A DNA stretch of 64,000 nucleotides, taken from NCBI GenBank assembly GCA_903642235.1, contig CAHJWL010000001.1, positions 186,001 to 250,000 of the forward strand, in the 5' to 3' direction. This document shows positions 1,758 to 58,021 of the stretch, one piece after another. Below the pieces are notes generated by a model. It was not told where the DNA came from and made no database searches. It was given only the letters and a program-made list of their open reading frames with translations. The translations under genes were made by a program, and so were the position numbers. The stretch's first letter is position 1, and the number at the start of each line of letters is the position of its first letter. Source of the DNA: Acidobacteriaceae bacterium. GTDB lineage: Bacteria > Acidobacteriota > Terriglobia > Terriglobales > Acidobacteriaceae.

Positions 1758-3284
1758 GTGCGTCTGCGTGCCGGGGCGGAAGAGCCGGCTATCATCACCG
1801 TTGACTCTCCCGTGCTTACAGCCTTCTCAACCGCGCGCCTTCGCCTTCTGCTGACGATCTACATCGTGGCCGTCGCATTCGTGACGGTCGCATTTGCTCT
1901 GCTGAACGCGCGGCTCGCCCACCCATGGGTCATCGGCGAATGGTTGATCAATTACAGCGGTGGCTTCCTCCGTCGCGGCTTGCTCGGAGAGCTCCTGCTG
2001 CTGGCGCATCGTGGGACCGGCCTGCCGCTCGTCGGTTTGACGGCCGCCCTGCAGGTGGGGCTCTATGGGCTCTTCTATGCGAGCCTGCTTCCCCTGTTGC
2101 GCGGCGTGCGATGGAGCCTGCCGCTGCTGGCGCTGTTGCTCTCGCCCGCAACGCTTGCGTTCACGGTGCTTGACCCGCCAACCTCCGTGCGTAAAGAGAT
2201 TCTGCTCTTCATCACGCTCTCTTTGCTGGCCAATGCGGTTGTGTCGAAGCGCCCGCGGCCATGGCAGCTCGGTCTTGGCCTGTCGATTGCCGGCCCGGTG
2301 CTCCTGCTGACGCACGAGGGCCTCGCGGCCTTTCTCCCCTATCTGTCCGTGCCGGTCGTCCTGTACTCCAGGGGTTCCAGCGCACCCGCAAACAAGCCTC
2401 CGCCGGCTTATGCCTCCGTGCGCATCGTTGCGGTTCCGCTGCTGTTGAGTGCGCTCGCGCTTGCAGCTGTGCTCAGCCATCCCGGCGGCCGGGAGCAGGC
2501 GCAGGCGGTCTGTCGATCTGTTGGGGGTGGAGATGGAGGACAGCTTGGAGGTCCGCCCGGCGGCCTTTGTCATGGCGCGATCGCCTATCTCGCGCTCACC
2601 CCGGCACAGGCACGCGCGGAGACTCTGCGAGCCATTCGCTTCTACAGCTATCGCACGCGCTATCCGCTGCCGATCCTGCTCATGGCGCTGCCAATCTGTC
2701 TCCTCTTTGCCGGTCGTATCCGCGCTCACCGGGACCTCGCGGTAACTCGGGCACTTCTGCTTGCAACGACTGTTGCCCTTGTACTTTCGCTGCCGCTCTT
2801 TGTGGTTGCGCGCGACTGGGGCCGCTGGATCGAGATCCACGCGACCTGCCTGCTGTTGCTCTTCCTTCTGGTGGAGCGGTCGCCCGAAGCTCTCGCGAAC
2901 ACCACCGGTGGGCTCTTGACGGAAGACAAACGTGACTACGGCTTCTTTGCCGGTCTTCCTCGCTTGTGGCAAGTCACCCTCTTGGCGCTGTATGGAACCT
3001 GCTGGACGCTGCCCGCGGTCGGCATCTTTCCCGGACGCCTCGGCTACTTTGATCTCGTTCGATACCTGCACAGCTACCGCAGCAAGCCTCATCTCTCAAC
3101 GGCTGCTTTCTCGCGCCCGGGCGGAGACAGCGTGCGCACGCGCTCTGTATGCTGTTTGAACGGTACGATGCAACTTGAACGTGCTGACCTTCGTCCAAAC
3201 GGGATCAGCCGCGAGGGAAATGCCATCGAAGTATCAGCCGGCTTCATGAAGGCAGGAACGCATGCGCCTCCTTTCCGAATTTGA
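1758..3284 (+). CDS. Polytopic inner-membrane protein, function unknown
   Basis: A 508-residue protein with roughly ten hydrophobic segments spread over residues 25-430. The stretch EWLINYSGGFLRRGLLGEL (about 57-75) resembles a motif in uncharacterised EpsG- or glycosyltransferase-like membrane proteins found near polysaccharide genes ('NYxxGFvRRGLlG'). No catalytic motif is recognised. The last 75 residues are hydrophilic and low in recognisable structure. The start is GTG, without a strong Shine-Dalgarno. The 3' end overlaps the next gene by 23 bases, suggesting co-transcription with the transglutaminase-like gene. Whether it handles surface glycans is inference only. Confidence 0.65.
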   Translation: MRLRAGAEEPAIITVDSPVLTAFSTARLRLLLTIYIVAVAFVTVAFALLNARLAHPWVIGEWLINYSGGFLRRGLLGELLLLAHRGTGLPLVGLTAALQVGLYGLFYASLLPLLRGVRWSLPLLALLLSPATLAFTVLDPPTSVRKEILLFITLSLLANAVVSKRPRPWQLGLGLSIAGPVLLLTHEGLAAFLPYLSVPVVLYSRGSSAPANKPPPAYASVRIVAVPLLLSALALAAVLSHPGGREQAQAVCRSVGGGDGGQLGGPPGGLCHGAIAYLALTPAQARAETLRAIRFYSYRTRYPLPILLMALPICLLFAGRIRAHRDLAVTRALLLATTVALVLSLPLFVVARDWGRWIEIHATCLLLLFLLVERSPEALANTTGGLLTEDKRDYGFFAGLPRLWQVTLLALYGTCWTLPAVGIFPGRLGYFDLVRYLHSYRSKPHLSTAAFSRPGGDSVRTRSVCCLNGTMQLERADLRPNGISREGNAIEVSAGFMKAGTHAPPFRI

Positions 3285-4161
3285 TATTCAGTTTCAGCTT
3301 CCCGCACCGACAGCCATGGTGGCTTTGCTGCATCTGCATCCATCGCTCGATGCGCAGCTGCTCGAGCCAGACGTATTGCGGATCGAGCACGTGGACGCAA
3401 ACTCGACGACGGTCCTCGAGCCTGGTCTCTATTTGGACAGCTTCGGCAATCGCTGCTCGCGCTTTTCGGCGCCGGAAGGCGGCCTGCGGCTAAGCGGCCG
3501 CAGTGTTGTTGACATCGCGGCTGAGCCTGATCCCATCAACACAGCCGCGACGCAGGCTCTGGTTCACGATCTTCCCCCCGAGACCCTGCAGTTTCTGCTC
3601 TCCAGCCGCTACTGCCAGGTAGACCAGATGAGCGGTATTGCTGGTGATCTGTTCGGGTTCACGTCTCCAGGCTGGGCCCGGGCCATCTACATCCGCGACT
3701 GGGTGCATAATCACGTCACCTTCAACTACAAGATGGCTCGCCCGACCAAAACCGCGCTCGATGTTTTTACCGAGCGGGTTGGCGTCTGCCGCGACTTCCA
3801 GCATCTCGCCATCACGCTAAGCCGCGCCATGAACATCCCCGCCCGCTACGTTACCGGCCACCTGGGTGACATTCGCCATCACTACAGCGGACCTGGAGAT
3901 TTTTCGGCCTGGTACGAGGTCTTTCTCGACGGCCGCTGGTGGACCATGGACGCACGGCATAACGACCAGCGCTATGGCCGCATCCTGATGGCGACCGGCC
4001 GTGATGCCACTGACGTCGCGTTGACGACCAGCTTCGGCGTTGCCAACCTGACCCATTTCTCCGTGGAATCGAATGAGATCGACGAGCAAGGCAACAAGCT
4101 GCCGGTGCCGCCGAACCCCGAGTTCATGCTCTACACGCCCACGTCCAACCTGACCGTCTGA
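3262..4161 (+). CDS. Transglutaminase-like (TGc) family protein with altered triad
   Basis: 299 residues. The N-terminal half resembles the bacterial transglutaminase N-domain and the C-terminal half is a TGc fold of the papain-like superfamily. The nucleophile is in GVCRDFQHL (Cys176) and the Asp in TMDARHN (Asp230). The position before AW that is normally His ('FHAWfE') is Ser215 (TCG at 3904-3906), so the usual Cys-His-Asp triad is incomplete. An AGGCAGGA ribosome site precedes the ATG. It may be a non-enzymatic binding protein, use another His (His206 and His207 lie close by), or be inactive. Homologues are often called transglutaminase-like cysteine peptidases. Confidence 0.85.
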   Translation: MRLLSEFDIQFQLPAPTAMVALLHLHPSLDAQLLEPDVLRIEHVDANSTTVLEPGLYLDSFGNRCSRFSAPEGGLRLSGRSVVDIAAEPDPINTAATQALVHDLPPETLQFLLSSRYCQVDQMSGIAGDLFGFTSPGWARAIYIRDWVHNHVTFNYKMARPTKTALDVFTERVGVCRDFQHLAITLSRAMNIPARYVTGHLGDIRHHYSGPGDFSAWYEVFLDGRWWTMDARHNDQRYGRILMATGRDATDVALTTSFGVANLTHFSVESNEIDEQGNKLPVPPNPEFMLYTPTSNLTV

Positions 4162-42354: not shown

Positions 42355-45033
42355 CTATCGCATCGCAGTATCCACTTCCTTCAGCCACGTCGCCGGCTTC
42401 AGCAGCTCGCGCGGCTTCGATCCGTCCGCAGGCCCCACCAGTCCATCCCGATGCATCATGTCGATCAGGTGTGCCGCCCGTCCATATCCAATTCGTAACC
42501 GTCGCTGTAACAGACTCGTCGATGCCTTGCCAAACTCGAACACCAGCCGCACCGCATCATCAAACAGCTCATCGTTCGCCTCGCCGCCATCGCCCGCCTC
42601 GCCCTCGACACTGTCTTCCTTCGGCCCTTCGAGGAAGCCCTGCACGTACTCGGCCTCGCCCTGCGCCTTCCAGAACTCCGTTACCGCGGCAATCTCCTTC
42701 TCGGTGACAAACGGTGCATGCACCCGCTGCACACGGCTCGTCCCCGGCGGCAGATACAGCATGTCGCCGCGTCCCAGCAGACTTTCCGCACCGTTCGAAT
42801 CAATAATCGTCCGCGAGTCCACCTTCGTCGCCAGCCGGAAGCTCATGCGCGTCGGCACGTTCGCCTTGATCAGCCCCGTGATCACATCCACCGACGGCCG
42901 CTGCGTCGCCAGCACCAGGTGAATACCCACCGCGCGCGCCATCTGCGCCAGCCGCGTGATCGCCTCTTCCACGTTCGATCGATCCAGCATCATCAGGTCG
43001 GCCAGTTCGTCGATGATGATCATGATGTACGGCAGCGGCTCCTGATCGCGCGGGTCTTCAAACATGTCGGCTGTCGCGTTCTCAACCATCTTGTTGTACT
43101 GATCAATGTTCCGCACGTGATGGCTGGCCAGCAGCTTCAGACGCCGCTCCATCTCCCGCACCGCGTTGCGCAGTGCATTCGCCGCCAGCTTCGCCTCCGT
43201 GATGATCGGCGTAAACAGATGCGGAATCCCTTCGTACATCCCCAGTTCCACGCGCTTCGGGTCGACCAGGATCATGCGCACCTGCTCCGGCGTCGACTTG
43301 AACAGCACGCTCATGATCATCGCGTTGATCGCCACCGACTTGCCCGACCCGGTTGAGCCCGCGATCAGCACATGCGGCATACTCGCCAGATCGCCCGTCA
43401 CAATGCGGCCGTTGATGTCCTTGCCCAGCGCAATCGCCAGCCGCGACTTCGACTGCGCGAAGCTCTCGCACTCCACCACATCGCGCAGCCAGATGGTCTC
43501 GCGTTCGGAGTTCGGGACTTGAATCCCCACCGTCGATTTTCCCGCCATGCGTTCAATCAGAATGCTCTCCGCCGCCATCGCCAGGCACAGATCGTCCGCC
43601 AGCCCGGTCACGCGCGAGTACTTCACCCCCGCATCCGGCTTGAACTCAAACGTCGTCACCACCGGCCCCGGGTTGATCTGCGTCACCTGTCCGTCCACAT
43701 CGAACTCGGCGCACTTCTCAACCAGCACCCGCGCCTCGTCGCGCAGCGCATCCTCCCGCACCTGCGCATGCTCGTCACTCTTGTAGAGCAGGGAAGAGGG
43801 CGGCAATTTGTAACCACGCACGCTCTTTGGCGTAATCGCCACCGCCTTGATGTCCGAGTCCGCGCGTTTGCCAAAGGAGATTCCCTGCGCGGGCATGGGT
43901 TCGGCCGGAACGGCTGCAGGTTCAGACACCCGCGCTGCGGTTCGGGCCGGCACTGGAGGAAGCGCAGGCAGCGGCTCCACAGGCTCGGGTGTCTTCTGTG
44001 CGCGGGCTGGGGGCGTCTCGGGCAAAGGGAATCCGAAGGCTGCTGCCTCCGCGAAGTTGTTGTCGTCATCCAGTGCTCGTCGCGGTGTCGCCGCCTTCGC
44101 CAGAGCCTCCGCATGTGGAGCCGCTGCCGCCATCGCGGTCGAAATCGACGTTGCCGCCGGAGCATCCACCAGCGTGCGCGGCATCGCCTCCCACACACTG
44201 GCCGCCTCGCCTTCCGTGATGATGGCCGGCGCCTCCGGCTCAGAGATCGTTCCGTTGCGGCGGCGGCTCCACCAGCCAAACAGGCCGGCAAGTAGTGTGT
44301 TCCGCTCCGGAGCCGCGCTCTCCGCCGCCGCGTGCGCCTCGTGCGCTCGCGCCAGCTTCTCCGCTGCCTCGCGTCGAGTGCCGAAGCGCTCTGTCGAAGC
44401 CTCCATCCGGGCATTCAGACGATTCAGCCTCCACTGCGCCCATCGATCATAGAGACCGCGGAAAAGCGAGAAGCGCGTCGTCAGCCAGGCCCGGGCCGTT
44501 GCGAGCGTGAACGTCGTCGAGAGATAGAGCGATACCGCCACCAGCAGTGTCACAACCAGCGCCGCCCCGGGCAGGTTCAGGTACTGCACCAGACTGTCCG
44601 AGACCAGCCGTCCGCTCACACCTTCAATCGGCAGCGCATGCCGCCAAAGCAGGCCGCCCGGCAGCAGAGCCACCATCGCCGGTGCCGCCAGCAGCCAGAG
44701 ACACACGCCGATCAGCTTTGAAAGCGTTGATCCGGTTGATCGCGATCGCATCCATCGCAGCCCTAAACGCACCAGCAGCAGCGGCAGGAAGAAGGAGGCC
44801 ACGCCAAAGAGCTGCAGCAGCGCGTCCGATCCGTATGCACCGAGCACCCCAACCCAGTTATGTGCCGGCCGCCCCGTTGCATACGCGCCTGCCGTGTTGA
44901 AGGAGGGATCCGTTGCGGTGTACGTTGCCAGCGCTAGCAGCAGCAGGGCAGCCGCACCCAGCGTCATCAGGCCAATCAGCTCATTCAACCGCCGGCTGCG
45001 CGTCGGTGCCGTTCCAGGTCGTAGGTTCTTCAT
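42355..45033 (-). CDS. ftsK: DNA translocase FtsK
   Basis: 892 residues. Four N-terminal membrane helices (residues 20-185) anchor it at the septum. A Pro/Ala-rich linker follows, then the RecA-like motor with Walker A GSTGSGKS and Walker B IIIDELADLM, and a C-terminal gamma winged helix (AVRLVFEFGKASTSLLQRRL) that reads polar DNA motifs. It pumps chromosome dimers toward the XerCD site and clears DNA from the division plane. ATG 45033 is the start; upstream frame to 45159 is not family-like. Confidence 0.96.
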   Translation of the reverse strand: MKNLRPGTAPTRSRRLNELIGLMTLGAAALLLLALATYTATDPSFNTAGAYATGRPAHNWVGVLGAYGSDALLQLFGVASFFLPLLLVRLGLRWMRSRSTGSTLSKLIGVCLWLLAAPAMVALLPGGLLWRHALPIEGVSGRLVSDSLVQYLNLPGAALVVTLLVAVSLYLSTTFTLATARAWLTTRFSLFRGLYDRWAQWRLNRLNARMEASTERFGTRREAAEKLARAHEAHAAAESAAPERNTLLAGLFGWWSRRRNGTISEPEAPAIITEGEAASVWEAMPRTLVDAPAATSISTAMAAAAPHAEALAKAATPRRALDDDNNFAEAAAFGFPLPETPPARAQKTPEPVEPLPALPPVPARTAARVSEPAAVPAEPMPAQGISFGKRADSDIKAVAITPKSVRGYKLPPSSLLYKSDEHAQVREDALRDEARVLVEKCAEFDVDGQVTQINPGPVVTTFEFKPDAGVKYSRVTGLADDLCLAMAAESILIERMAGKSTVGIQVPNSERETIWLRDVVECESFAQSKSRLAIALGKDINGRIVTGDLASMPHVLIAGSTGSGKSVAINAMIMSVLFKSTPEQVRMILVDPKRVELGMYEGIPHLFTPIITEAKLAANALRNAVREMERRLKLLASHHVRNIDQYNKMVENATADMFEDPRDQEPLPYIMIIIDELADLMMLDRSNVEEAITRLAQMARAVGIHLVLATQRPSVDVITGLIKANVPTRMSFRLATKVDSRTIIDSNGAESLLGRGDMLYLPPGTSRVQRVHAPFVTEKEIAAVTEFWKAQGEAEYVQGFLEGPKEDSVEGEAGDGGEANDELFDDAVRLVFEFGKASTSLLQRRLRIGYGRAAHLIDMMHRDGLVGPADGSKPRELLKPATWLKEVDTAMR

Positions 45034-53782: not shown

Positions 53783-54679
53783 CTACCCCAGCAGCTCGCC
53801 CACTTCGCGCAGCTCTGCGAGCAATCCCGCAAGCCTCGTCCGCAGCCCGTCGCTCACCGGCACCATCGGCAGCCGCAGCCGTTCCTCGCACCGCCCCAGC
53901 ATTGAGAGCACCGCCTTGATCGGCGCCGGGCTCGTCTCCGCAAAGTGCGCCTGCATGATCCGGAAAAATCGCAGATTCAGTGCTCGCGCCTCGTCCCACC
54001 GGCCCGCCTCCGCCGCATGCACCAGCGCGGCCACCTGCCGCGGAAACGCGTTCGACGCCACCGACACCAGCCCCACCCCGCCCAAGGCCACCACCGGCAG
54101 CGCCATCCCATCATCCCCCGCAAAGACGGAAAATCCCGGCGGCACCGACGCCAGCACCTCCGTGATCTGCATCACGCTCCCACTCGACTCCTTCACCCCA
54201 ATCACGTTCGGCAGCACAGCAAGCCGCGCCACCGTCACCGGCTCCAGATTCGCTCCTGTCCGCCCAGGAATGTTGTAGAGCAGCACCGGCAACTCGGTCG
54301 CCTCCGCAATCGCGCGAAAGTGCTGGTACTGTCCCTCCTGCCCCGGCCGGTTGTAAAACGGATTCGCCGTCAGCACGCCCGTCAGCCCCGGCAAACAGCA
54401 CAGCTGCCGCACCCGCTCCACCGCCACCGCCGTCGCATTGTGCGTGCACCCGGCAAACACCGGCACTCGCCCCGCCGCCGCCTCAATCACGACCGCCACC
54501 ACCCGCAGCCACTCGGCATCGGAGAGCGTCGACGCCTCACCCGTCGTCCCGCACGGCACCAGAAAATCAATCCCGCTCTCGATCTGCCACTGCACCAGGC
54601 TTCGCAGCGCTGTCTCGTCCACCGAGCCGTCCGTCGCAAACGGCGTCACCAGCGCTGTCCCACATCCCCGCAGTTGCAT
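53783..54679 (-). CDS. dapA: 4-hydroxy-tetrahydrodipicolinate synthase
   Basis: 298 residues, TIM barrel. Motifs: PCGTTGEASTLSDAEW, LYNIPGRTG (Tyr for proton relay) and the Schiff-base Lys in VIGVKESSG. It condenses pyruvate with aspartate semialdehyde. Start MQLRGCGTAL is typical. It is placed apart from asd-lysC-dapB by the toxin-antitoxin pair, the aminopeptidase and a plus-strand island. Confidence 0.95.
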   Translation of the reverse strand: MQLRGCGTALVTPFATDGSVDETALRSLVQWQIESGIDFLVPCGTTGEASTLSDAEWLRVVAVVIEAAAGRVPVFAGCTHNATAVAVERVRQLCCLPGLTGVLTANPFYNRPGQEGQYQHFRAIAEATELPVLLYNIPGRTGANLEPVTVARLAVLPNVIGVKESSGSVMQITEVLASVPPGFSVFAGDDGMALPVVALGGVGLVSVASNAFPRQVAALVHAAEAGRWDEARALNLRFFRIMQAHFAETSPAPIKAVLSMLGRCEERLRLPMVPVSDGLRTRLAGLLAELREVGELLG

Positions 54680-54741
54680 ACGATCCTCAGTCTAACCCTC
54701 TCGAGCGTGTAGTCTGACTCTTCGCTCGCCGCAGAAACCTC

Positions 54742-54770
54742 TTGCTCTCCGCACAGTGGTATGCGATAGT
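54742..54770 (+). promoter_or_regulatory. Candidate sigma-70 promoter for the 25-codon ORF
   Basis: TTGCTC (54742-54747) and GATAGT (54765-54770) are 17 bases apart. A transcript starting about 7 bases later would have a short leader ending in the perfect AAAGGAGG ribosome site. Confidence 0.4.
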
Positions 54771-54794
54771 CGGTCTCGCAAAGGAGGAGTAGGC

Positions 54795-54872
54795 ATGTCT
54801 TTTATCAATAGCGTTTCCACGCTGCGCACCACGTCTCAGCGATTCTGCCGGCTCCTCGCCCCTTCCAGCTAG
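54795..54872 (+). CDS. 25-residue peptide with perfect Shine-Dalgarno (possible leader peptide)
   Basis: ATG 54795 lies 7 bases behind AAAGGAGG, the complement of the 16S anti-Shine-Dalgarno and the best such site I saw in the window. The 25 residues run MSFINSVSTLRTTSQRF to LAPSS, basic with one Cys. It ends at TAG 54872, 90 bases before the 103-residue gene. It could be a leader or attenuator for that gene or a true peptide. No database family is known to me. Coding is supported by the ribosome site and a promoter-like pair only. Confidence 0.45.
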   Translation: MSFINSVSTLRTTSQRFCRLLAPSS

Positions 54873-54962
54873 TTGCGGCTTATCTCTGCACTGTGCCGAG
54901 GCCGCGAGTTCCGCTGCGCTCTGCATCATCACGCATCTCCCTAAATACAGAAAGGTCCCGCC

Positions 54963-55274
54963 ATGGGCAACGTCTCTGTGCGTCACAGCACGCCGATCGG
55001 TGCCGTCTCGCTCTGCGCCACCTGTTCCAACTCTCATATCGTCGAGGGCTTTCGCGAGTCAGAGGTGATCGCTCTCTGTACCTACATCTACGATCGCCCA
55101 ATCCCCATTCAGTTCCGGGTGAAATCCTGCTCGAACCACCATGACAAAACGCGTCCAAGCTACCGGGACATGCAGAAACTCGCCATCCCGGTCACGACCG
55201 GAACACTCAAGCCGGTCGGCTTCCTCATACAGCGTGAGAGGGACAGCGAGGAAACGGAGTACGACGATCAGTAA
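54963..55274 (+). CDS. Small Cys-rich hypothetical protein
   Basis: 103 residues. CATCSN near residue 18, a Cys near 39, CSNHH near 55-59 and a Met near 69 suggest a metal-binding zinc finger-like core (C-x2-C, C, C-x2-HH). Similar small genes with this spacing recur as hypotheticals in acidobacteria as I recall. The 5' region carries the 25-codon ORF. It lies between divergent dapA and convergent M29 genes and is the only plus-strand gene in that part. Confidence 0.6.
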   Translation: MGNVSVRHSTPIGAVSLCATCSNSHIVEGFRESEVIALCTYIYDRPIPIQFRVKSCSNHHDKTRPSYRDMQKLAIPVTTGTLKPVGFLIQRERDSEETEYDDQ

Positions 55275-55280
55275 AGCGCA

Positions 55281-55309
55281 GCGGTCTGTGAACAGTAATC
55301 ACAGACCGC
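55281..55309 (+). other. 10-bp perfect inverted repeat between convergent genes
   Basis: GCGGTCTGTG (55281-55290) and CACAGACCGC (55300-55309) pair perfectly around a 9-base loop, just 6 bases after the stop of the Cys-rich gene and 6 bases before the M29 stop. There is no T-tract on either side, so a bidirectional barrier or RNA-stabilising stem is more likely than a classical terminator. Confidence 0.55.
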
Positions 55310-55315
55310 GACCGC

Positions 55316-56596
55316 CTAGACCCACTCACCCTGGCGCATCAGCGGCTCGCGCGCGCCATCGGCATGTACGCCATCCACATCAATCGCCGCCGACCCGATC
55401 ATCCAGTCCACATGAATCAAGCTTGAGTTTGCACCCAGCTTCGCCAGCTCCTCCTCACCCATCTTTTCGCCGCCGATCAGGCAAGTCGAGTACGCCTGCC
55501 CTAGCGCGATATGGCTCGCCGCGTTCTCATCGAAGAGGGTGTTCCAAAACAGAATCCCGCTCTCGGAGATCGGCGACGAGTGCGGCACCAGCGCCACCTC
55601 GCCCAGTCGTCGCGCGCCCTCGTCCGTCGCAATCAGCCGGTTCAACACATCCTCGCCTGCCGTTGCGTGTGCCTCGACAATCTTCCCGCTCTCAAAGCGA
55701 ACCGAGATGTTCTCGATCAGCGATCCCTGGTGCGACAGCGGCTTCGATGCCCGCACCACACCGTCAACACGATCCTTGTGCGGCGTCGTGAAGCACTCCT
55801 CCGTCGGAATATTTGGCTGGCAGTACACCCCATTGCCCGCCGTCGTTCCGCCACCCGCCCAAAGATGCTCGTCCGCCAGCCCCACCGTAAGATCCGTCGT
55901 TCCGTCCTGCGACCGAAAATGCAGCGAGTGAAATCGCTTCGCATTCAGCAGATCCACCCGCCGCTTCAGCGTCGCACCATGCTCCTTCCACTGCGCCACC
56001 GGATCGTCTCCATCAATCCGCGACGCCTTGAAGATCGCCTCCCACAGCTTGCTTACTGCGGCATCCGCCGCCTCGTCCGGAAACACCAGCTTTGCCCACT
56101 CCGGCGTCGCACACGCCACGATCGTCCAGTTGATCTCATGCCGCGTAATCAGCTCCATCGCCGGCTTGGACGCCTTGCTCGCCGCCACATTCGCCCGCGC
56201 AATCTTCGCCGGATCCTGCCCCGCCAAGAGCGCCGGGTTCGCGCCCGCAATCGCCATCCGCGCCGCGCCGCCGCGGAACGCCGTCGCAATCGCGGTCTGC
56301 AACCACTCCGGCGCATAGTCAAAGCTCGCATCGCCCGCGTACTTGTACCGCGCCAGCACCGACGGGTCGTCGCCGTAGAACGTCGTCACCAGCAGTGCCC
56401 CGGCCTTGTACGCATGCTCCGTGATCCGCCGCACCAGCGGCAGCGCCTCCATTGGCGCCGTCAGCAACATCTCCTGCCCCTCGCGCAGCCCCAGCCCGAT
56501 CTTCACCGCCACCTCGGCCAGCCGATCCAGCTTTTCATCAAACGAGAGCGCGTCAAAACGCGTCCGAACAGGAGCACTTATCACAGGGGAGGACAT
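55316..56596 (-). CDS. M29-family aminopeptidase (AmpS/AmpT-like)
   Basis: 426 residues. It fits the M29 thermophilic aminopeptidase family, with phrases such as FHSLHFRSQDGTTDLTVGL, NIPTEECFTTPHKDRVDG and ENAASHIALGQAYS, where the Glu, His and Asp residues bind the two metals. It removes N-terminal residues from peptides in the cytosol. It follows the PIN toxin gene by 42 bases in the DAP gene row. Confidence 0.92.
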   Translation of the reverse strand: MSSPVISAPVRTRFDALSFDEKLDRLAEVAVKIGLGLREGQEMLLTAPMEALPLVRRITEHAYKAGALLVTTFYGDDPSVLARYKYAGDASFDYAPEWLQTAIATAFRGGAARMAIAGANPALLAGQDPAKIARANVAASKASKPAMELITRHEINWTIVACATPEWAKLVFPDEAADAAVSKLWEAIFKASRIDGDDPVAQWKEHGATLKRRVDLLNAKRFHSLHFRSQDGTTDLTVGLADEHLWAGGGTTAGNGVYCQPNIPTEECFTTPHKDRVDGVVRASKPLSHQGSLIENISVRFESGKIVEAHATAGEDVLNRLIATDEGARRLGEVALVPHSSPISESGILFWNTLFDENAASHIALGQAYSTCLIGGEKMGEEELAKLGANSSLIHVDWMIGSAAIDVDGVHADGAREPLMRQGEWV

Positions 56597-56638: not shown

Positions 56639-57052
56639 TCACCCCATCTGCTCCAGATACTCCGCCGGTGTCACGATCGAAATGCCGCGCCATGGAGCAA
56701 GCACCAGCAAATCCTGATCTCCTGTCAAAATCAAGTCAGCATCGCCGTTGAGCGCTACTTCGAGAAACTTATTGTCGCGAACGTCACGGCACTCAAGAAC
56801 TCGCTTCTTTACAGGCACAAGGGTTACGGCTCTGGAGAAGTCATGAAGGAACAGGAGGCGTTGCCTTGACGCAAGATAGTGATCGAACTTTGGCCGCATC
56901 AGGACATTCCTCAGCTCTATCAGTGTCTCGTCAGACGCGAGTAAGACGCTTCGATCAAGAGAGCGTTCGAAAGCCCGTGCCGAGGTCGACTCGGGCCGGA
57001 TAACTCGACTCAGAATGACATTCGTGTCGACAACGATTCGACTCGCACTCAA
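56639..57052 (-). CDS. PIN-domain toxin
   Basis: 137 residues of the PIN toxin family (COG1569-like). Acidic residues Asp9 (IVVDTNV), a central Glu near DETLIELR, and Asp in CRDVRDNKFLEVAL and LILTGDQD build the metal site of an RNase. ATG overlaps the antitoxin stop by 4 bases (ATGA). Such toxins cut RNA when the antitoxin fails. Confidence 0.9.
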   Translation of the reverse strand: MSASRIVVDTNVILSRVIRPESTSARAFERSLDRSVLLASDETLIELRNVLMRPKFDHYLASRQRLLFLHDFSRAVTLVPVKKRVLECRDVRDNKFLEVALNGDADLILTGDQDLLVLAPWRGISIVTPAEYLEQMG

Positions 57053-57309
57053 TCAGCCAGCAGCCTTTGCTCTACTTCATCCAGACTCATGCCATCCGCC
57101 TCGGCCCGCTGTGCAATCGCCGCGTGAAGGTCATCGAACGAAGCTAACAGCCTCTTTGCCTTCGCCCGGCGAACAATCTCATAGTCCTCCATGGAGACCA
57201 GAGCGCCCAACTCGTTCTCGTCCTCGCAAATAACGACAGCATCATCTTTCGCTTCCTCAAGCAACCGAGGAAGCGACGTAGAAGCTTCAGTTGGGGTCAC
57301 CGTGCGCAT
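57049..57309 (-). CDS. Phd/YefM-family antitoxin
   Basis: 86 residues. The N-terminal part (VTPTEASTSLPRLLEEAKDD, VICEDENELGALVSMEDYEI) is a Phd/YefM DNA-binding fold; the C-terminus is a helix that would block the toxin. ATG 57309 is the true start; the frame runs on upstream without support. It is the first gene of the pair, as in most PIN systems, and usually represses its own promoter with the toxin. Confidence 0.88.
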   Translation of the reverse strand: MRTVTPTEASTSLPRLLEEAKDDAVVICEDENELGALVSMEDYEIVRRAKAKRLLASFDDLHAAIAQRAEADGMSLDEVEQRLLAD

Positions 57310-57334
57310 ACTCGAAGCATACTCCGCGCAGCAG

Positions 57335-58021
57335 CTACAGCTGCTTGTAGATATCCTTGAAGTCAAACGTACCGCGCCGTGTCGCGATCCACTCCGCCGC
57401 CCGCACCGCACCCTCCGCAAACGCCCGCCGCGAGATCGACACATGCGTCAGCGTCAGCCGGTCCGCATCGCTCTCGGCCACCAGCACGTGTTCGCCCGCC
57501 ACATCGCCCTCGCGCTTCGACGTCACCGGAACCTCGCCACTCCCCGTCGCCGCACGTACCGCATCCGCCAGCGTGATCGCCGTCCCGCTCGGTGTGTCCA
57601 GCTTCGACGTATGGTGCGTCTCCTCCACGCGGAACGCGTACCCAGCATGCTTCAGCGCGCCCGCCATCGTCCCCGCCAGCTCCAGCATCACCTGCACACC
57701 CACGGAGTAGTTCGTCCCATACAGCAGCCCCGCCTGCCTTCGCTCCGTCAGCGCTTCCATGTCCTTCAGCCGCGAGTACCACCCCGTTGTGCCGATCACC
57801 ATGCGCGCTCCCGTTGCCAGGCACGCCCGCATATTCTGCAGCACCGCCTCGGGCGTCGTGAAGTCGATCACCACGTCAAACCCCGCTACAAACGGCGGCG
57901 TCAGCGCCATCGCCTCGCGGTTCTCCTTCGCGTCAAGCACATGCACCCCGTGCCCGCGCTCATGCGCCACATCCGCGACCAGCTTCCCTGTCTTGCCATG
58001 CCCCAGTACCAGAACGCGCAT
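57335..58021 (-). CDS. dapB: 4-hydroxy-tetrahydrodipicolinate reductase
   Basis: 228 residues. The N-terminal nucleotide motif is GHGKTGKLV, a variant of the usual GxxGxMG. The C-terminal part has ETHHTSKLDTPSGTA with the catalytic His and Lys. It reduces the dapA product with NAD(P)H. GAGAGGA precedes the ATG and the lysC stop is 15 bases upstream, so the gene is in the asd-lysC operon. It is slightly shorter than E. coli DapB (about 270). Confidence 0.93.
   Translation of the reverse strand: MRVLVLGHGKTGKLVADVAHERGHGVHVLDAKENREAMALTPPFVAGFDVVIDFTTPEAVLQNMRACLATGARMVIGTTGWYSRLKDMEALTERRQAGLLYGTNYSVGVQVMLELAGTMAGALKHAGYAFRVEETHHTSKLDTPSGTAITLADAVRAATGSGEVPVTSKREGDVAGEHVLVAESDADRLTLTHVSISRRAFAEGAVRAAEWIATRRGTFDFKDIYKQL

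Follow-up and report, generated by a model that had tools for sequence, protein, structure and literature searches.

In the window, by which we mean the whole stretch of 64,000 nucleotides of acidobacterial DNA that was analysed, a small unit on the plus strand is flanked by two genes on the minus strand, namely, dapA and a gene assigned by Pfam to the M29 peptidases. The minus-strand row around the unit, as named by NCBIfam, is made up of dapD, dapA, dapB, aspartokinase, asd, and a PIN-family toxin. The features of the unit are as follows.

54781..54787, plus strand: perfect Shine-Dalgarno (SD) sequence AAGGAGG, with a spacer of 7 nt to the ATG
54795..54872, plus strand: candidate leader ORF of 25 codons, MSFINSVSTLRTTSQRFCRLLAPSS, with its ATG at 54795 and its stop codon TAG at 54870-54872
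54784..54857, plus strand: predicted pairing between the SD arm (54784-54794) and codons near the end of the ORF (54847-54857), without significance when compared with codon shuffles
54951..54955, plus strand: weak SD AAAGG of the 103-codon gene
54963..55274, plus strand: gene for a four-Cys protein of 103 residues, an orphan member of a Ro60/Y-RNA-operon family, with its stop codon at 55272-55274
55014..55130, plus strand: span of the codons for the conserved Cys residues C18, C21, C39, and C56 (CX2C-X17-C-X16-C)
55281..55309, no strand assigned: perfect 11-bp hairpin with convergent stop codons on either side, terminator-like but with no T-run

The positions of the SD, of the 25-codon ORF, of the 90-nt gap between it and the 103-codon ORF, and of that second ORF agree with those in a preliminary description of this DNA. 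Its statement that the unit lies in the DAP gene row and yet on the opposite strand is also borne out, the neighbours being on the minus strand and the unit on the plus strand. The perfect hairpin that it placed at the end of the unit is present but is 11 bp long and not 10, with arms GCGGTCTGTGA (55281-55291) and TCACAGACCGC (55299-55309) and a loop of 7, and it gave no terminator-like match. In 54600-55400 neither a consensus promoter nor an intrinsic terminator was found, so that there is none of the latter between the 25-codon ORF and the 103-codon gene; a transcription attenuator with a terminator was dropped as a candidate. An Rfam scan of 54000-56000 found no element and gave two chance matches only. 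Between dapB and the M29 peptidase gene there is a toxin-antitoxin pair (56639-57444, minus strand), in which the PIN-family toxin matches TIGR00305 and PF13470 and the putative antitoxin ORF beside it has a Phd/YefM match below threshold.

The four-Cys protein family and its genomic company

When the single sequence was used as the query, homologues of the 103-residue protein turned up in 8 of 60 relatives, all from the genus of the window. A profile built from 8 members was positive in 69 of 398 genomes of the family Acidobacteriaceae, the window's genome included and two of them (G002 and G197) being fragments, and across the phylum in 16 of 297 genomes, five of which are outside the family. 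Sequence searches of Pfam, NCBIfam, PADLOC, and PDB assigned the protein to no family (the best PDB match had an E of 1.1), and no relative of it was found in viral contigs and plasmids. The profile matches without the two fragments, together with G018, G034, and G035 from the single-sequence search, gave a set of 70 loci, and this set without G025 gave a protein alignment of 69 rows. In G025, a genome without Ro60, the Cys gene is split across two reading frames (L018, 8009-8328).

The four Cys are kept in 68, 69, 69, and 68 of the 69 aligned loci, and the exceptions are G275 (C18Y) and G416 (C56R), the latter being a Ro60-bearing genome. Thus, of the Cys/His core in the preliminary description the near-invariant Cys part stands but the His part does not, because no His position is conserved in 75% or more of the 69 aligned loci. 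The window copy lacks none of the four Cys, has an intact frame and 21 of the 25 conserved columns, and shares with the family the profile similarity, the Cys at 18, 21, 39, and 56, and the C-terminal GF. Judged from its sequence, the 103-codon ORF is a genuine gene, whose family has no Pfam or NCBIfam model, and the four conserved Cys fit a putative zinc site. The AlphaFold model of the protein has a mean pLDDT of 41 and supports no fold.

TROVE, the mark of the RNA quality-control protein Ro60, was found in 71 of the 398 family genomes and in 1 of 14 controls. It co-occurs with the Cys gene in 52 genomes (odds ratio 50, Fisher p 3e-34, genomes being counted and kinship ignored); in these counts second pieces of the TROVE gene (G142, G198, G227, and G109) and of the Cys gene (G025, G384, and G075) were merged or dropped. 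In all 52 genomes the Cys gene and TROVE share contig and strand, with TROVE downstream, within 3 kb in 50 of them, and in two loci TROVE was confirmed via Pfam. The Cys gene occurs without TROVE in 17 of the 69 genomes, two of which are fragments while some have the gene near contig ends. When a broader profile was used, a Cys match (E 2.6e-10 to 2e-4) was found around Ro60 in 5 of 15 further genomes examined.

YrlA (RF02553) was matched in 57 of the 398 family genomes. No match reaches the Rfam gathering score of RF02553 and, at the threshold used, 6 of 14 control genomes including E. coli and B. subtilis were also positive; therefore, the counts per genome include false ones, and the YrlA evidence rests on the places beside the Cys gene, where a match on the same strand and at most 900 nt away is found in 42 of 69 cases. 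The Y RNAs of the relatives are of the YrlA type with a tRNA-like module. Our own Y-RNA model, which was made by aligning 22 of the 30 loci fetched and removing three outliers to leave 19 sequences, had matches at 57 of the 70 Cys loci at E ≤1e-3, the training loci included. The usual order in these soil bacteria, the Acidobacteriaceae, is leader ORF, Y RNA or Y RNAs, Cys protein, often another Y RNA, and then Ro60. Taken at the level of sequence, these results show that the Cys family is associated in operons with Ro60 and Y RNAs. Granulicella and Edaphobacter account for most of the named records that were matched in a separate scan. The stretches fetched for the five homologues from other families showed neither Ro60 nor a Y RNA, the one of G666 having only 324 bp downstream.

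Two observations on these loci are added here. At L181 (G331) seven consecutive matches to the Y-RNA model lie around the Cys gene (2080-3621), and at least two per locus are common. Clusters of tRNA matches occur at most 1.5 kb from Y-RNA/Cys loci in L005 (16-425) and L006 (2826-3166), one of them barely above the tRNA-Sec threshold.

Leader ORFs in the relatives and the candidate in the window

A short ORF of 25-36 codons, led by an SD, precedes the Y RNAs at 48 of the 69 other loci, and 27 of these 48 leaders are exactly 30 codons long. They were collected by a peptide search, to which divergent ones were added by motif and by eye; at the other 21 loci, two of which have less than 500 nt upstream before the contig end, no leader was found. 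The leader peptide of one member, searched against 62 genus genomes, gave 17 matches with E <0.002, of which 16 are upstream of a Cys gene and the 17th (G431) has a weak Ro60 match next to it and no Cys match. In G304 the leader is ahead of a Ro60 locus that has no Cys match and, therefore, the leader belongs to the operon and not to the Cys gene.

The leader peptides have a motif around HN(S/T)MRR...RA. RR and RRA recur in them, and the sensing of Arg codons by the leader would be a speculative reading of this. Of the codon differences between leaders, 24% are synonymous in frame 0, compared to 12.5% and 11% in the two remaining frames; variation is greatest at third positions, and in pairs of leaders picked by DNA identity the figures are 26% and 13%. 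These sequence comparisons show a coding constraint on the relatives' leader, the constraint on the amino acids being loose. Since synonymous differences are in excess in frame 0 and the third positions are the most variable, it is likely that the relatives' leader is translated.

The SD arm of the leader is almost always GCGTAGGAG. In 45 of the 48 leaders a segment at most 60 nt past the stop codon can form 8 or 9 of the 9 possible pairs with this arm, compared to 20% of shuffles; one of the 45, that of G227, is best left uncounted, its pairs being chiefly G-U and its distance unusual. The conservation of this complementarity between SD and anti-SD is thereby shown for the relatives' leaders, while the covariation is thin because the arm is almost invariant; one compensatory change was seen, in G034. 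Five loci in other families have instead of such a leader a mini-ORF of 4-5 codons whose stop codon overlaps the SD of the Cys gene, and the SD that precedes the mini-ORF itself reads AAGGAGG at four of these loci, the one in G531 being weaker. Just before the mini-ORF there is a near-CGACGATGGCATCGTCG palindrome after TTGAC(A/T/C) in L233, L234, L235, L236, and L237 (five loci from three other families), an arrangement that looks like an operator in a promoter.

In the window, AAGGAGG-N4-10-ATG occurs at one site across the 64 kb of both strands, the one at 54781; the second AAGGAGG of the window, at 44900, stands before GTG or TTG. A Markov model gives an expected count of 0.78 for this motif in 64 kb, so the motif by itself is within chance and its weight comes from its place and not from its rarity. 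By arithmetic from the same expectation, the chance of finding it on the correct strand and within the roughly 220 nt ahead of the 103-codon gene is about 0.1%.

The 25-codon ORF fits the architecture of the relatives' leaders in that it is upstream of the gene, is SD-led, and has a length in the range of 25-36 codons. Its DNA has no match among 61 other genus genomes, and its peptide is missed by an HMM of the leader (19 sequences), the best E values nearby on the plus strand being about 50-100. Over the whole length the similarity of the peptide to the relatives' leaders is at the level of chance, since of 271 small ORFs taken at random from the window 76 score equally well; for the first 14 residues the mean score is reached by 3 of the 271 and the maximum by 20. 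The 5' region in the window has neither the GCGTAGGAG SD nor a CTCCTACGC-like anti-SD after the stop codon. As for the predicted pairing of the SD with late codons, 21 of 300 codon shuffles are equally closed and a 6-bp helix occurs in 2176 of 5000, and the fold is not more stable than that of shuffles (z +0.4 and +0.75). On this evidence the odds are about even that the 25-codon ORF descends from the ancestral leader.

The preliminary description offered a leader peptide as one reading of the short ORF and looked to its conservation in related genomes as a check, which went half against that reading. The exact 25-codon ORF with its SD context is unconserved among 61 genomes, but the reading survives in a general form because the relatives have leader ORFs in the same place, SD-led and upstream in 48 of 69 other loci, and five distant loci have mini-ORFs.

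Origin of the orphan copy and rival explanations

The genome from which the window comes is 99.9% complete and has no TROVE match and hence no Ro60 downstream on the same strand, and Y-RNA searches found no Y RNA near the Cys gene or elsewhere in it. One of these searches, in which 150 of 1266 candidates went on from a first look to scoring, had G003 and G289 as positive controls. The window gene groups inside a clade that is leader-bearing and mostly Ro60-bearing. Among the 29 genus relatives that were examined, 10 have the peptidase gene and dapA side by side, separated by 57-300 bp, compared to 640 in the window; the 29 were the best peptidase matches of 61 genus genomes, adjacency was judged within the fetched flank, and blastn of their flanks found no trace of the unit. 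In seven other genomes of the genus (G001, G014, G025, G029, G208, G275, and G328) no Ro60 or Y RNA was found and the leader ORF is kept with its SD/anti-SD, and in G370 the Y RNA is kept and Ro60 was not found. The simplest reading is that Ro60 and the Y RNA were lost and that the gene was moved to the dap row or rebuilt there. Because the branch of the window gene is long (0.82) and its support moderate, it is possible that the gene was acquired by transfer from an unsampled lineage.

We propose, with moderate confidence, that the 103-codon gene codes for an orphaned accessory protein of the Ro60/Y-RNA system and that it stands behind a remodelled translated leader. If this is the case, Ro60 and the Y RNAs would have been lost in the lineage of the window and the Cys gene would have stayed, with a strongly initiated short ORF in the place of the leader, between the M29 peptidase gene and dapA. 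The four Cys would bind one zinc ion to give a small RNA- or Ro60-binding fold, and this fold would assist the Ro60/Y-RNA particle or the RNAs that the particle handles. Going by the genomic company and the cysteines alone, a zinc-bound fold that acts with this particle is the likeliest role of the protein. The leader ORF would be translated and the occupancy of the 5' leader by ribosomes would set expression. In the relatives the SD of the leader could alternatively be closed by the anti-SD just after the leader's stop codon and, since it can be closed in this way, translation of the leader and the closed leader would be mutually exclusive. In the window the 25-codon ORF would be translated in replacement of the ancestral leader, and the state of the 103-codon gene's 5' leader would depend on its translation. 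These are the functions that we infer for the protein and the leader.

It is possible, although we consider it rather doubtful, that the 103-codon gene is what we describe while the 25-codon ORF owes its SD and ATG to chance, in a 5' region that has been remodelled, or has no regulatory role even though it is translated. Such an origin is in keeping with the 0.78 sites expected per 64 kb, with the lack of a DNA match of the ORF in 61 genus genomes, with a peptide that is not significantly leader-like, and with the absence of the conserved anti-SD. However, chance would have had to get both the strand and the place right, at about 0.1%, at a position where 48 of 69 relatives' genes have leaders and five distant ones have mini-ORFs. 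That the gene is a decaying relic, which has lost its partners and is heading for loss, is unlikely. The window copy keeps its four Cys, 21 of 25 conserved columns, and an intact frame, and a Cys has been lost in the Ro60-bearing G416 as well, even though the long branch of the window gene and the state of two Ro60-less genus members, G025 with its gene split between two frames and G275 with C18Y, are what decay would look like.

The reading in the preliminary description, a leader peptide followed by a metal-responsive zinc protein, is very improbable. The four conserved Cys are compatible with its zinc site, but there is no conserved His, no Rfam element in 54000-56000, and no metal gene among the named neighbours, and the Cys genes of the relatives sit with Ro60 and Y RNAs. 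The metal-responsive reading was dropped in favour of a link to Ro60 and Y RNAs, and a metal-responsive downstream protein finds no support here.

Relation to known systems and significance

In Deinococcus, Ro60 (Rsr), YrlA, and PNPase form a particle (RYPER), and the relatives' loci likewise encode Ro60 (TROVE) and YrlA-type Y RNAs. The accessible portions of PMC8394870 and PMC7790460 mention no Cys protein or leader ORF for RYPER, and the window genome itself differs from this system in having no detected Ro60 or Y RNA. The rsr-yrlBA-rtcBA RNA repair operon of Salmonella has Ro60 and Y RNAs in one operon according to the accessible portion of PMC7790460. The acidobacterial relatives also join Ro60 and Y RNAs in one operon, but the Salmonella operon has RtcR activation and RtcBA, whereas in the acidobacterial G003 and G034 it is Ro60 that comes after the Cys gene.

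In leader-peptide regulators of the SD-sequestering ermC kind, a short ORF is translated and its occupancy by ribosomes decides between alternative RNA pairings. The relatives' leader is like these in being a short ORF whose ribosome occupancy would choose the RNA pairing, and unlike them in that the conserved helix hides the leader's own SD and in that an inducer and a terminator are not shown.

A wider proposal, which is tentative and which we do not expect to be the more probable outcome, is that acidobacterial Ro60/Y-RNA operons carry an occupancy switch made of the SD of a translated leader and the anti-SD past its stop codon, that the four-Cys protein is a third and separable part of the Ro60 particle, and that in the window lineage this protein has a Ro60-independent role and a new leader ORF of its own. 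In the literature searched, including those parts of PMC7790460, PMC8394870, and PMC7824862 that could be consulted, there is no description of a Ro60 operon from Acidobacteria, of its leader, or of the Cys protein. The novelty is mostly in the Ro60/Y-RNA operon that was reached through the finding in the window.

The finding bears on what Ro60 and Y RNAs do in bacteria and on how they are turned on in operons that are not of the RtcR type. Named strains of Granulicella and Edaphobacter offer two handles on this, namely, the conserved leader ORF and its SD/anti-SD helix on the one hand and the small protein that is a constant partner on the other, and the orphan copies allow the Cys protein to be studied without Ro60.
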